A model generated the notes under the pieces. It ran no database searches and had not been told where the DNA came from. It saw nothing but the letters and a program-made list of their open reading frames with translations. The translations under genes were made by a program, and so were the position numbers. A DNA stretch of 49,664 bases from Halorubrum sp. (GTDB lineage Archaea; Halobacteriota; Halobacteria; Halobacteriales; Haloferacaceae). The stretch spans positions 1 to 49,664 of the forward strand of contig JAQCNI010000018.1 of assembly GCA_028275105.1 (NCBI GenBank), written 5' to 3'. Of this stretch, positions 501-30,016 are shown in pieces. Each line of letters begins with the position of its first letter. Within the stretch, counting starts at the first letter, position 1.

Positions 501-827
501 TTACTCGGAACCGTTCCCGAACAACCGACTCCACACGGACGATGTCGCTGACCCGTTCTCGTCGTCACGTGCGGCCACAGTGTGCTCGTCCCGGGTCCGA
601 GTGGTTTCCCGGTCGCGGGCTGCGAGTGCATCGGTGAGCCGCTCGACCTCTGCCTCCAGTGTCTCGATCCGCTCGCTTTTCCGTTCGAGCGCCGCCTCGA
701 GTTCGTCAACCCGCTCAGTCAACAGCCGATTCTTCTCGGTCAGATACGCGCGACTCCGCTCCGAGTCGGCACGACTGACGTCGGCAGACGATACACCCGT
801 ACTGGTAGCTACATGCGTGGATGCCAT
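501..827 (-). CDS. Small coiled-coil protein of unknown function, start codon inside an IS terminal repeat
   Basis: A 108-aa acidic protein. Residues about 18-70 are a continuous heptad-like helix rich in Glu, Arg and Leu (NRLLTERVDELEAALERKSE and onward), so a coiled coil is likely. The C-terminus is a disordered linker ending in SVWSRLFGNGSE. No catalytic motif, signal peptide or membrane segment is seen. It converges on the HVO_A0114-type gene with a 14-nt gap. Its ATG is formed by the terminal CAT (825-827) of the left inverted repeat of the adjacent IS element, so either the element landed exactly at the start or the original N-terminus and promoter were removed. Expression would then depend on sequence in the IS end. 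Function unknown. Confidence 0.5.
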   Translation of the reverse strand: MASTHVATSTGVSSADVSRADSERSRAYLTEKNRLLTERVDELEAALERKSERIETLEAEVERLTDALAARDRETTRTRDEHTVAARDDENGSATSSVWSRLFGNGSE

Positions 828-840
828 CCGTTCTAGTTTA
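825..840 (+). repeat. Left terminal inverted repeat of the IS element
   Basis: These 16 bases are the exact reverse complement of 2442-2457. Homology does not extend inward past 840 or outward past 825. Bases 825-827 (CAT) also serve as the start codon of the minus-strand coiled-coil gene. Confidence 0.85.
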
Positions 841-903: not shown

Positions 904-2236
904 GTGGAGAGTGTGTACACCCCACCGGATTCAGTCGTTGTACAGCGAATTCAAAGAGCCTTTGCCTCTGATGAGTTGCGCGAGCGCGCTCGCGCAACGA
1001 ATCTCGCACAACGAGAGCGGAAATTCGATGTCGTCGCGCTGTTCTACACGCTCTCACTCGGGTTCGCCGCTGGATCAGACCGCTCCATCCAGGCGTTTCT
1101 CGAACGCTACGTCGAGATGGCTGACTGTGACGAACTCTCCTATCCGAGTTTCCACGGCTGGTTCGAACCCGGATTCGTTGCGCTGCTTCGAGAAATTCTC
1201 GATGACGCCATCGAGAATCTCGACACGGGCCGAACCGACCTTAGCGGACGTCTCGAACGCATTCGAGACGTCCTCATTGTCGACGCTACAGCCATCTCAC
1301 TGTATCAAGACGCCAAAGCCGTCTACGCTCTCGATGAAGACCGAGCTGGCGCGAAACTTCATGTCACCGAATCGCTCTCGACTGCGCTTCCAACACGATT
1401 CCAGACCACCGACGGCAAAACACACGAACGCAGCCAGCTACCCACCGGCGAGTGGGTAGCTGGCGCCCTCGTCTTGTTCGATCTCGGTTACTACGATTTC
1501 TGGCTGTTCGACCGCATCGACACCAACGGCGGCTGGTTCGTCTGCCGTGTCAAAGACGACGCAAACTTCGACATCGTCGAGGAACTCCGCACATAGCGAG
1601 GCAACAGTATCCCACTCGAAGGCCAGTCGCTGCAGGCCGTCCTCGACGACCTGCAGCGACGGGAAATCGACGTTCGGATCACTCTCTCGTTCGACCGCAA
1701 GCGAGGGTCGTGCGCCAGCACGACCCGAACGTTTCGCCTAGTGGGTGTTCGAAATGAGGACAGTGGCGAGTACCACCTGTTCCTGACGAATCTCGACAGA
1801 GACAACTACAGCGCGCCCGATATCGCACAGCTCTATCGGGCGCGCTGGGAGATCGAACTCCTGTTCAAAGAACTCAAATCACGGTTTGGTCTCGAGGAGA
1901 TCGAGACCACCGACGCCTACATCATCGAGGCATTGATCATCACGGCTGTAATCTCGTTGTTGATGAGCCGCGTTATCGTCGATGAACTGCGGAAACTGGA
2001 CGCGAAACAGCGTGAAAGCGCCGACGACGCCGTGGCGTCGTCGCCGCCTCTCTCTCTCTCGTCGACGGTGCTCACACGCTGTGGAACGGCATGCACACCT
2101 GATCCAGTTGTACCTGATGCTCGATTTGGGGTATGACCTGCCGGATCTCGATGAGTTGTTGCTGTGGGCGTCACGTGATCCAAATCCACACCGCCCGAGG
2201 TTGCGCGAGCAGGTGGAGTCAGGCGAGTTCTGGTAA
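904..2236 (+). pseudogene. IS4-family ISH8-group transposase, inactivated
   Basis: The GTG start gives MESVYTPPDS. The DDE catalytic motifs remain recognisable: first Asp in VLIVDATAISLYQ (about residue 127), second Asp in VLFDLGYYDF, and the Glu in the IS4-type YRARWEIELLFKELK motif. An in-frame TAG at 1594-1596 interrupts codon 231, and the same frame then reads on to 2136. Around 2048-2060 a CT-dinucleotide run coincides with a switch to the +2 frame, where the conserved C-terminus (AVERHAHLIQLYLMLDLGYD ... QVESGEFW) continues to the stop at 2234-2236. Loss of one CT unit would explain the frameshift. Full-length product would be about 443 aa. It is not expected to be active. Confidence 0.85.
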
Positions 2237-2250
2237 CGAACTCGCCTGAC
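2218..2250 (+). terminator. Perfect 13-bp hairpin over the transposase stop codon
   Basis: Arms 2218-2230 and 2238-2250 are exact reverse complements with a 7-nt loop containing the TAA stop (2234-2236). It could act as a terminator or mRNA-end structure, but no U-run follows directly, and it is one of about eleven such hairpins in the element, so a specific terminator role is uncertain. Confidence 0.35.
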
Positions 2251-2441
2251 GAGACGGCTGAATATGCCCGACTGAACAGCGACGGCTCTAGAACGGCGGC
2301 GCACTCAGGACCGCGAGTGCGCCGCCTCCGAAGAGTTCCACCAGTGACCATCGGCTGATTTACCGAGGCAACAGACATCCCAACTTAATTTTGGTCCGAT
2401 TCAACAGGATATTTTGATCAGACCCTGCCTCACCCCGCCAC

Positions 2442-2457
2442 TAAACTAGAACGGATG
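2442..2457 (-). repeat. Right terminal inverted repeat of the IS element
   Basis: Exact 16-bp reverse complement of 825-840. It defines the right boundary of the IS4-family element. Confidence 0.85.
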
Positions 2458-27565: not shown

Positions 27566-28579
27566 TTACTCACCGAGTTCGATCCGTGGATCCAGGTACG
27601 CGTACAGGATGTCCACGACGAGGTTGACTGTGATCGTTGCGATCGCGGTGACGATGATGAACCCCATCAACGCCGCGAAATCGTTTCCGGTGGCCGCGTT
27701 GGCCACCCATTGACCCAGCCCCGGGTAGTTGAACACCACCTCGACGAGGATCGCGCCTCGAAGCAGGAACGCGAAACTGAGCCCGGCGATGGTCAACGTC
27801 GGGATCAGGGAGTTCCGACGGACGTGCCGCTTGTACACCATATCGTTGCTGACGCCACGAGCGCGCGCGGCCGTGACGTAATCCTCGTTTTTCTTTTCGA
27901 CCATCTCGCCCCGGAGGTGGCGCATGATGAGGGCCGCGTTCGTGTATCCGAGCACGAGCGCGGGCATGGCGATGTGCCGGAGCGCGTCGACGAGCGCTCT
28001 CGTATCCGTCGCCAAGACCGCGTCAAGCGTGTAGATCCCCGTCGGATGCGGAATCGACATGTAGATCGTCTGTGTCGCCCGACCGAGCGGGAACCAGCCC
28101 AGCGTGACGAAGAAGATCCACACCATGATCAGGGCCGACCAGAACTGCGGGGTCGACAGGCCACCGACGGCCAGTCCCCGGGAGACGTGGTCGATCCACG
28201 TGTCCTGGTACTTCCCCGCGAGCGTTCCGAGAGTGAAACTAACTATTAGCGCGACGACAAGTCCGGAGAGCGCCAGTTCGACCGTCGGCGGACCGAACTG
28301 GACGAGCGCGTTCGTAACGCTCGTCCCCGCCGTCGGCGACCAGCCCAGGTCTCCCTGGAACACTCCCTGCATCCAGTATAAGTACTGAACCCAAATGGGG
28401 TCGTTGAGATGGTATACTTCCCTGAGCTGGGCGATCTGTTCGTCGCTGGTGAATCGACCGACGTACAGTGCGATCGGAGAGCCTGCGAGCCTCGTCAGAA
28501 CGAAGAGTGCGACCGTGACCCCTATGAGTGTGGGGATGGCCCAGAGGCCGCGGCGTATCGCATAATCCTTTGGTTCCAT
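27566..28579 (-). CDS. dppB: Peptide-type ABC transporter permease, DppB-like
   Basis: A 337-aa permease. The start MEPKDYAIRRGLWAIPTLIG (ATG 28579) gives the family-typical N-terminal segment; the reading frame stays open far upstream but that part is unlike any DppB. Landmarks are GDLGWSPTAGTSVTNALVQF, LPALVLG-type MPALVLGYTNAALIMRHLRG, the EAA loop YVTAARARGVSNDMVYKRHV, and VVFNYPGLGQWV near the end. With the DppC-like partner it forms the membrane channel for the importer. Confidence 0.9.
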   Translation of the reverse strand: MEPKDYAIRRGLWAIPTLIGVTVALFVLTRLAGSPIALYVGRFTSDEQIAQLREVYHLNDPIWVQYLYWMQGVFQGDLGWSPTAGTSVTNALVQFGPPTVELALSGLVVALIVSFTLGTLAGKYQDTWIDHVSRGLAVGGLSTPQFWSALIMVWIFFVTLGWFPLGRATQTIYMSIPHPTGIYTLDAVLATDTRALVDALRHIAMPALVLGYTNAALIMRHLRGEMVEKKNEDYVTAARARGVSNDMVYKRHVRRNSLIPTLTIAGLSFAFLLRGAILVEVVFNYPGLGQWVANAATGNDFAALMGFIIVTAIATITVNLVVDILYAYLDPRIELGE

Positions 28580-28633
28580 GCTATAGACCGGGTTGTGATT
28601 GAATCCACTTATACTTGCGGCATCCCACAGGAA

Positions 28634-28696
28634 CGTCGATGATAGTATCGACGCCGGATCCGCCGGGGGCGACGCCGGATCCGTCGGGGCGACGCC
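28634..28696. repeat. Short hairpin and 14-bp direct repeats in the dppB/dehydrogenase gap
   Basis: A 7-bp perfect stem (28634-28640 with 28647-28653, loop 6) overlaps two copies of CGACGCCGGATCCG at 28649-28662 and 28670-28683, with a third partial copy at 28690. They lie 55-115 nt upstream of the dppB-like start in a 345-bp divergent gap (28580-28924). This could be an operator array for the permease operon; no other gene is visible in the gap. Confidence 0.45.
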
Positions 28697-28892
28697 ACAA
28701 TCGCCCCGATCATTCGGGGCATCGGATGAAACACACTGAGTATGTACTACAAGGCGTGGGCGATCCGGCAGCGTCGACCGGGCAAAGGGACGTGTCGACG
28801 GAACGGACTGACGGGCCGAAACCGGCCAATTCGGTCGGGACAGCGGGCAGTCGGTCGAGCGAGGACCGGCCCGATCGGAAGGGGTTCCCCTG

Positions 28893-28900
28893 AATTTATG
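28893..28900 (+). promoter_or_regulatory. TATA box of the dehydrogenase gene
   Basis: AATTTATG lies 25-32 nt upstream of the ATG at 28925, consistent with a leaderless transcript. Confidence 0.55.
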
Positions 28901-28924
28901 TAGACACGTGCGCTGGCTCAGATC

Positions 28925-30016
28925 ATGGAAGCAGTCGTATTCCCCGAACCGGACCAAGTGGAGTTGCGGGAGGTCGATCGACCGGACCCCGGTGCCGGCG
29001 AGGCGCTGGTGAAGGTCCGATCGTCGACGATCTGCGGAAGCGACGTCAAGATCCTCCACGGCGAGTACGCCGCGACCGACTACCCTCACATCCCCGGCCA
29101 CGAATGGTCGGGCGAAGTCGTCGAGGTCGGCGACGGGGTCGAGCGCCTTGAGGCGGGCGACGGGGTCGCGGCGGAACCGCACGTCGGCTGTGGCGAGTGT
29201 CCCCGCTGTATGGAGGGGTTGTACAACCTCTGTGAGCACTACGGCGAGGACGAGCACGGTCACGCCCACATCGGCTTCACCTCCAACGGCGGGCTTGCCG
29301 AGTACGTCGCCGTCGACACGCGTGCGCTTCACACGCTCGAGACGATGACGTACGATCAGGGCGCGTTCTGTGAGGCGGCGGGCGTTGCCCTCCACGCCGT
29401 CGAGCGGGCGGGGATCGACGGCGACGACGACGTCGTCGTCATCGGCCCCGGCGCGATCGGACTGTGTGCCGTCCAGATCGCCCGTAATGGCGGCGCCGAC
29501 AACGTCGTCCTGACCGGGACGCGCGAGGAGCGGCTGGCGCCCGCGACCGACCTCGGCGCGGATCACACCGTCAACGTGTACGAGGTCGACGACGTCGTCG
29601 ACCACGTGACCGACCTGCTCGGGGGGAAGCGCGCCGACCTCGTGGTCGAGTTGGCCGGAACCGAGACGGCGTCCAAGCAGGCCGTCGAGATGGCTCGCCG
29701 CGGGGGCGACGTCGTGCTCGCCGGATCGACGAGCGCCGGTCGCGAGCTGAACGTCGACCTTCGCGAGATCGTGGTCGGTCACAAGAACATCTACGGGAGC
29801 GTCGCCAACCCCGAATGGATCTGCGAACGAGGGCTATCGATGGTCGAGCGGGGTACGATAGACGTCGACCCGCTGTTGACACACCGGTTCGCACTCGCCG
29901 AGTTCGAGGACGCCCTCGACGCGTTCCAGGAGCGGGAGGGCGGCGCGTTCCGCGTGATGTTGTATCCGGGACAGGAGCCCTCCGAGATCGATCGGACGGC
30001 GGTCCAGCGGGAGTAG
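28925..30016 (+). CDS. Zinc-dependent alcohol/sorbitol-type dehydrogenase (MDR)
   Basis: A 363-aa MDR. Catalytic zinc site TICGSDVKI and PGHEWSGEVV, structural zinc loop GCGECPRCMEGLYNLC, Rossmann motif VIGPGAIGLC. The C-terminal half has the LAEFEDALDAFQEREGGAFR pattern of threonine/sorbitol dehydrogenases. NAD(P)-linked oxidation of a secondary alcohol is expected; substrate unknown. It precedes the E1 alpha/beta pair by about 210 nt on the same strand but has its own TATA element. Confidence 0.88.
   Translation: MEAVVFPEPDQVELREVDRPDPGAGEALVKVRSSTICGSDVKILHGEYAATDYPHIPGHEWSGEVVEVGDGVERLEAGDGVAAEPHVGCGECPRCMEGLYNLCEHYGEDEHGHAHIGFTSNGGLAEYVAVDTRALHTLETMTYDQGAFCEAAGVALHAVERAGIDGDDDVVVIGPGAIGLCAVQIARNGGADNVVLTGTREERLAPATDLGADHTVNVYEVDDVVDHVTDLLGGKRADLVVELAGTETASKQAVEMARRGGDVVLAGSTSAGRELNVDLREIVVGHKNIYGSVANPEWICERGLSMVERGTIDVDPLLTHRFALAEFEDALDAFQEREGGAFRVMLYPGQEPSEIDRTAVQRE

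Follow-up and report, generated by a model that had tools for sequence, protein, structure and literature searches.

The phenomenon nearest to the one reported here is the occurrence of coding palindromes in the mitochondria of Nematomorpha (PMC6649704), where perfect repeats lie in conserved coding DNA, both arms are coding, few repeats are imperfect and there are effects of codon phase. The arms of those palindromes average 43 bp, may reach 142 bp, and belong to the mitochondria of one animal phylum. Here we describe a series of short hairpins in an insertion sequence (IS) that occupies positions 825-2457 of a 49,664-nucleotide stretch of Halorubrum sp. DNA (contig JAQCNI010000018.1; the whole stretch is called the window). 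This element is a broken member of the IS4 family, ISH8 group. In contrast to the nematomorph palindromes, the haloarchaeal repeats have arms of 9-16 bp, are found in several unrelated transposon families, occur in untranslated DNA as well and show a constraint that goes beyond conversion of one arm by the other.

Two other kinds of system bear comparison. Template switching leaves inverted loops as a known footprint at short inverted repeats, as described for yeast genes (PMC8604942) and for RNA genes (PMC8794818). The haloarchaeal hairpins resemble these cases in arm homogenisation and in exact loop inversion, but such inversions are infrequent, and something else seems to keep the stems. 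In bacterial transposons such as IS200, ISPpu9 and IS10, transcript structure limits transposase expression; one or two structures are involved, at the 5' end and on the sense strand, whereas here about ten hairpins extend over the whole gene and wobble pairs are not favored. The ISH8 group itself (ISH5, ISH8, ISH30, ISH32) shares with our element its transposase family, a DDE-type signature, terminal inverted repeats (TIRs) and, for copies of the ISH5, ISH30 and ISH32 types, 75-87% DNA identity. Compared with the group as published, the hairpin series appears in none of the papers found, the window copy is broken and no target duplication is recognized. The initial annotation of this DNA knew of no description of such a series in this IS group, and we likewise found none in the open-access literature, subscription papers lying outside the search.

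Results

An excess of perfect inverted repeats

Eleven perfect inverted repeats had been listed in the element, and all are exact at the positions given, although some stems are longer than was listed. Hairpin 1, entered as 976-997, extends to 975-998, with 12-bp arms and no loop. The repeat entered as 1195-1218 is only the core of hairpin 2 (1192-1221), a 13-bp family stem with a loop of 4 nt that carries one A·C mismatch in the window copy. Hairpins 3 (1246-1273; 12 bp, loop 4), 4 (1433-1464; 13 bp, loop 6), 5 (1626-1660; 11 bp, loop 13) and 6 (1705-1726; 9 bp, loop 4) follow, and hairpin 7, entered as 1810-1846, occupies 1809-1847 at its full extent, with 14-bp arms and a loop of 11, and spans SAPDIAQLYRARW. 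Hairpin 8 (2022-2043) has 10 bp and a loop of 2, the loop of hairpin 9 (2218-2250; 13 bp) contains a stop codon, and both 12-bp arms of hairpin 10 (2295-2326) are non-coding. At 1887-1909, the remaining 9-bp repeat is paired in no copy but that of the window, and it probably arose by chance. In short, the element bears about ten perfect inverted repeats of small size (arms of 9-14 bp, loops of 0-13 nt), which form a series specific to its family and extend over the transposase gene and the DNA 3' of it.

In 300 dinucleotide shuffles of positions 825-2457 the mean number of repeats was 0.10, with a maximum of 2, compared with the 11 observed; for stems of at least 11 bp the corresponding values were 0.01 and 7. 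Synonymous-codon shuffles of the two open reading frame (ORF) pieces of the transposase gene yielded 0.03 and 0.05 repeats where 4 and 3 are present, and in the 47.2 kb of the window downstream of the element there are 12 repeats, all with stems shorter than 11 bp. All three comparisons show an excess in the element, which supports the earlier statement that the number of repeats is not expected by chance, and the codon shuffles in particular back the proposal that synonymous choice is bent toward self-complementarity. Chance combined with codon use is ruled out by the dinucleotide and synonymous shuffles. Nor does GC content alone account for the pattern, since no such clustering is seen on a Thermus plasmid of 70% GC or on a rhizobial plasmid. 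General repetitiveness was also rejected, because direct and mirror repeats show no excess, as was a common protein-binding motif, because the arms have, by eye, no common sequence and only size and complementarity recur. Stem length has its mode at 12-13 bp, loops are mostly of 0-20 nt with a peak at 6-8, and the intervals between hairpins are mostly 50-300 nt.

Conservation and co-variation of the stems

DNA searches revealed many copies of the element in genomes and plasmids of haloarchaea, some of them annotated in their records as ISH32, ISH30 or ISH5. Of these, 35 distinct copies with an identity of about 75% or more have a series at the same positions with the same loop sizes. Ten of the eleven window repeats recur in these relatives, but unequally. 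Hairpins 1-5 and 7 are group-wide; hairpin 6 is perfect in some relatives and one mismatch off in many; hairpin 8 is kept in about half of the group; and hairpins 9 and 10 are confined to an ISH32-like subgroup.

Co-variation was measured in 28 of the 35 copies for the 73 pairs of the six group-wide helices, with controls in which the pairing was slid by 1-3 columns. In these data 98.1% of the cells are paired, as opposed to 28-42% when slid. Eight pairs have changed on both sides, compared with 3.3 ± 1.2 in shuffles (one of 500 shuffles was as high), the number of double-change cells is 33 compared with 7.0 ± 2.3, and the co-variation score is 0.078 compared with 0.043 ± 0.002. These shuffles ignore the relatedness of the copies, which the slid controls take into account. 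There are two co-varying pairs in each of hairpins 1, 5 and 7 and one in hairpin 2; hairpin 4 also co-varies, and no double change was seen in hairpin 3. Several of the double changes swap amino acids on both arms, as judged from codons read by hand. For example, the arms GCCAGCTACCC/GGGTAGCTGGC are replaced by GCCAGATGCCC/GGGCATCTGGC, and the protein changes from QLPTGEWVAG to QMPTGEWASG. Whether the stems co-vary had been put forward as a check on the original observation, and the alignment of the 28 copies answers it with compensatory changes.

In broken copies 34 of 655 pairs are mismatched, compared with about 50 of 1,900 in intact copies (odds ratio 2.0, p = 0.002, a calculation that ignores relatedness). 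This roughly twofold difference fits selection on active elements. Separately, four copies (L047, L050, L051 and L055) contain tandem duplications of about 85-105 bp inside the element, recognized from matches that overlap and from hairpins present twice. Each covers one or two conserved hairpins, which suggests slippage at hairpins.

Distribution among transposon families and genomes

The initial annotation considered the series in the ISH8 group only. It is not peculiar to this group, as most of the haloarchaeal DDE families tested have a series of their own. On plasmid pNRC200 of Halobacterium salinarum, the expectation from synonymous shuffles is 0.0-0.6 repeats for each gene. The numbers observed are 10 for ISH3B, 8 each for ISH27 and ISH32, 4-6 for ISH8, 6 for ISH10 (IS66), 5 for ISH11 (IS5), 2 for ISH28 (IS5) and 1 for ISH29 (IS6). 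Together, 12 distinct H. salinarum DDE transposase genes, which represent eight IS names and include several close variants of ISH8 or ISH27, contain 68 repeats in 13.8 kb, compared with 8 repeats in the 67 kb of 50 other coding sequences (CDS) of the plasmid, each with 0 or 1. ISH7 and the one TnpB gene tested on pNRC200 have 0 repeats. On the Natrinema plasmid pNATPE01, all seven transposase genes tested (IS1595, IS66, IS4, IS5 and one unnamed) hold 3-8 repeats and 13 host genes hold 0-2. Almost all of the DDE transposase genes tested from haloarchaea (IS4, ISH3, IS5, IS66, IS1595 and, weakly, IS6) thus possess such a series, each its own. ISH8 and ISH32 both belong to the IS4 family, yet their hairpins lie mostly at different protein positions, so that the series look independently acquired.

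In the transposases tested from outside the haloarchaea the feature is largely missing. No repeats were found in IS1, IS5, IS30 and IS186 of E. coli, in rhizobial IS21, IS5, IS110 and ISNCY elements or in IS630 of Thermus, and 20 ORFs for DDE transposases in other classes of the same phylum (methanogens among them by inference) contain 2 repeats in total. This last count also led us to reject polyploidy as a sole cause, the ploidy and identity of these genomes being assumed. A Haloquadratum plasmid with no annotated IS has no repeats and serves as background only. A weaker version of the series is present in Deinococcus IS4 elements, with 2 repeats in ISDra1 and 4 in ISDra7, of which three are still perfect in a 90% identical copy from D. 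wulumuqiensis. In Deinococcus MP1, a 19-bp perfect loopless palindrome is situated just upstream of both ISDra1 transposase genes (L186:6322-6359 and L186:22795-22832).

Constraint on the stems

Third-position synonymous divergence was compared between stems and the rest of the gene in five families. In each, the stems were set from one reference and tested in the other members, and the ISH8 and ISH32 sets were limited to members of 72% identity, which keeps the two groups apart. The values for stems and for outside are 0.044 and 0.280 in ISH27, 0.062 and 0.224 in ISH11, 0.068 and 0.356 in ISH10, 0.047-0.080 and 0.352 in ISH32, and 0.045-0.061 and 0.243 in ISH8, so that in all five families divergence is 4-6 times lower in the stems. 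Non-coding arms behave in the same way. The non-coding arm of hairpin 9 diverges by 0.010, compared with 0.149 in adjacent non-coding DNA, and in hairpin 10 the arms diverge by 0.03-0.04, the loop by 0.257 and the flanks by 0.149 and 0.26. An ISH27 hairpin at the 3' end and an ISH10 leader hairpin, the latter conserved and placed directly before the CDS, have arms near 0-0.1 with flanks mostly at 0.5-0.7, and compensatory states are present. These data show that the hairpins are by far more strictly conserved than neighboring synonymous or non-coding sites.

The probable target of selection

When 33 mobilome transcripts were followed in H. salinarum, the mRNAs were abundant but only 4 proteins were detected, three of them TnpB (PMC10134880). 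The same study found that SmAP1 binds 24 of these transcripts and that its loss lowers transposition of the IS4 and ISH3 families, and it mentions that SmAP1 has the potential to melt hairpins. Many transposase genes are, in addition, covered by antisense RNAs (PMC6523106). The abundant mRNA with little protein, the SmAP1 effects and the antisense RNAs would fit hairpins that act as a brake on expression. Selection might act on hairpins in the sense mRNA, which would slow ribosomes, sequester signals or be processed and so limit transposase, with SmAP1 melting them when transposition is allowed. It is in accord with this proposal that mRNAs of the IS4 and ISH3 families are abundant without detectable protein and that both families transpose less when SmAP1 is lost (PMC10134880), that three of the four proteins detected in that study are TnpB and the one TnpB gene tested here has no such hairpins, that a stop codon lies in the loop of hairpin 9 and that ISH10 has its hairpin in the leader.

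In an RNA helix, however, a change from A-U to G·U is nearly harmless and should be tolerated better than a change to A·C. Third-position synonymous transitions that create G·T were found at 24 sites, compared with 97 expected from outside the stems, and those that create A·C at 22 sites, compared with 81 expected. When only A-T pairs are taken as the starting point, G·T is seen twice with 15.9 expected and A·C three times with 18.3 expected. These numbers are modest and may be compatible with a mild preference for G·U, but G·T has been removed as thoroughly as A·C, and folding of the sense mRNA alone is therefore unlikely to be the target. Windowed folding points the same way. Compared with codon shuffles, the IS genes have z-scores of -3 to -10 on both strands with no excess on the sense strand, whereas the TnpB gene, used as a positive control (L092:361-1506), folds better on the sense strand only, as expected from its 3' guide RNA, so that an excess of this kind would have been visible. 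Altogether we consider it unlikely that sense-mRNA structure is what is selected. The absence of both a wobble preference and a sense excess argues for strict Watson-Crick pairing on both strands, in the DNA or in transcripts of both. The initial annotation had offered selection on mRNA or single-stranded DNA structure and, as an alternative, template-switch correction; the form of the first that involves the mRNA strand only is disfavored, and neither of the two causes holds alone.

Template switching

Exact inversions of a loop, the footprint of switching, were observed in hairpin 4 of one copy (L047) and in hairpin 7 of another (L029), and this shows that the repeats occasionally fold as DNA. 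Among intact copies of ISH27 and ISH8, parsimony assigns three loop inversions and 108 loop substitutions to 19 hairpins; the inversion from ACAGCTG to CAGCTGT is ambiguous and involves an almost palindromic sequence.

It might be argued that such switching is neutral and sufficient, that is, that copying of arm onto arm makes and keeps the repeats while the protein removes double changes, so that the hairpins would have no function. Its concentration in IS elements would be expected if these are often re-synthesized during transposition or gap repair. Besides the loop inversions, the equal rarity of both kinds of mismatch agrees with this model, and a precedent has been argued for the coding palindromes of nematomorph mitochondria (PMC6649704). 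The coding stems also evolve at about the non-synonymous rate, as the model predicts, and switching together with protein constraint could therefore suffice for them. It could not suffice for the non-coding arms, whose pairs should drift in double steps and yet, in three hairpins from three families, diverge far less than loop and flanks. Three inversions compared with 108 substitutions looks too slow a rate to mend the stems, although conversions that do not turn the loop escape this count, and host genes of the same genomes (the 50 CDS of pNRC200 and 13 of pNATPE01) are without such repeats. Template-switch correction has thus left its footprints, as had been suggested, but looks too rare, and the non-coding arms too invariant, for it to keep the stems, and neutral switching as the whole explanation is in our opinion quite unlikely. 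A constitutive, genome-wide correction is similarly not favored, as the repeats are missing from host genes and decay is faster in broken copies.

The window copy and its surroundings

The element of the window, of the ISH5/ISH30/ISH32 type, is complete from TIR to TIR on the plus strand, with perfect 16-bp repeats at the left (CATCCGTTCTAGTTTA, 825-840, plus strand) and right (TAAACTAGAACGGATG, 2442-2457, minus strand), and it is the sole full copy in its genome assembly. The plus-strand transposase gene is interrupted. Its N-terminal part (904-1596) ends at an in-frame TAG at 1594-1596, where relatives have TGG. The C-terminal part (1741-2136) is in the same frame, contains the Y-(2)-R-(3)-E-(6)-K signature as YRARWEIELLFKELK and departs from the frame of the relatives by a frameshift near a CT run at about 2045-2062. 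A further plus-strand frame, at 1982-2236, encodes the C-terminus found in the relatives (...REQVESGEFW, then stop). The two ORF pieces match the IS4_1 transposase model NF033592 with values of 1.1e-46 and 4.8e-23. By reason of the TAG and the frameshift the window copy has no intact transposase; intact relatives exist. No matching bases that could represent a target site duplication are present beside the two TIRs, which may reflect loss by rearrangement and concerns this copy and not the family.

A minus-strand ORF of 108 amino acids (501-827) takes its ATG from the terminal CAT of the element (825-827) and so begins exactly at the left TIR; the insertion may have supplied or replaced its start. 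Further IS4-like and ISH11-like transposase fragments, some with stop codons, are found in the same genome on contigs C50, C22, C36 and C23. Elsewhere in the window, at 28300-29603, there is a small cluster of five perfect inverted repeats of 9-10 bp, where both strands carry long ORFs.

Discussion

It is probable, on balance, that selection acts on hairpins of both strands. Purifying selection would maintain Watson-Crick pairing within both strands, be it in hairpins of the element's DNA or in transcripts from the two strands. Our overall reading, to which we give an even chance, is that the element carries a conserved hairpin series under purifying selection; its least certain part is that the benefit would be restraint of transposition. 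Hairpins spaced mostly every 50-300 nt would impede transposase expression or strand exchange between copies and so may keep active copies tolerable to their hosts. Among the possible functions, restraint of transposase expression is a tentative candidate with less than an even chance; restraint of ectopic recombination seems improbable; and the rest of our expectation falls to other functions.

A number of observations weigh against this reading. The ISH32 group taken alone leans slightly toward G·T, an excess of G·U. The SmAP1 findings relate to RNA, but the wobble test is in favor of DNA or of both strands. Among the eight control genes, two likewise fold better than their shuffles, an MFS transporter (z = -4.5 and -2.8) and kdpA (-2.9 and -2.5), and folding z-scores alone are therefore weak evidence. 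The excess of mismatches in broken copies is of modest size, with an odds ratio uncorrected for relatedness. Finally, the DDE transposases of methanogens and of other relatives in the phylum are without the feature, as is ISH7, so that the series is not simply a requirement of transposons.

An alternative, which likewise requires both strands to form hairpins and in this agrees with the wobble test, is that folded single strands would hinder RadA filaments and strand exchange, so that multi-copy elements recombine less in polyploid, strongly recombining hosts. The spacing of the hairpins would suit such a role, as would their presence in the IS4 elements of Deinococcus, which is a strong recombiner. 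But the TnpB gene tested and ISH7 have no hairpins, and neither do the transposases of methanogens, many of which are polyploid; we see only a slim chance that breaking up homology explains the series. That a conserved protein and GC-rich codon use should have produced it by coincidence is a negligible prospect, for although the arms overlap conserved protein motifs, codon shuffles that keep protein and codon use give 0.03-0.05 repeats in place of the 3-4 seen, co-variation involves amino-acid change on both arms, and conserved hairpins occur in non-coding DNA.

A wider proposal is that most haloarchaeal DDE transposon families, and some of Deinococcus, have each acquired by separate evolution a series of DNA hairpins along the whole gene, selected on both strands, that places self-control or control of recombination in synonymous sites. 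We advance it as a possibility with somewhat less than an even prospect. The pattern suggests a hitherto undescribed level of selection on haloarchaeal transposons. It appears to amount to a second constraint on their transposase genes, one that slows synonymous sites in stems 4-6 fold and sometimes overrides the protein, and codon-based evolutionary rates in these genes should accordingly be used with caution. Hairpin-rich DDE genes and hairpin-free TnpB or ISH7 provide natural contrasts for the effects of structure on transposition and recombination. The series also offers a handle, at the level of sequence, on the abundant transposase mRNA of Halobacterium that has no detectable protein, and on the effect of SmAP1 on the IS4 and ISH3 families but not on all others.
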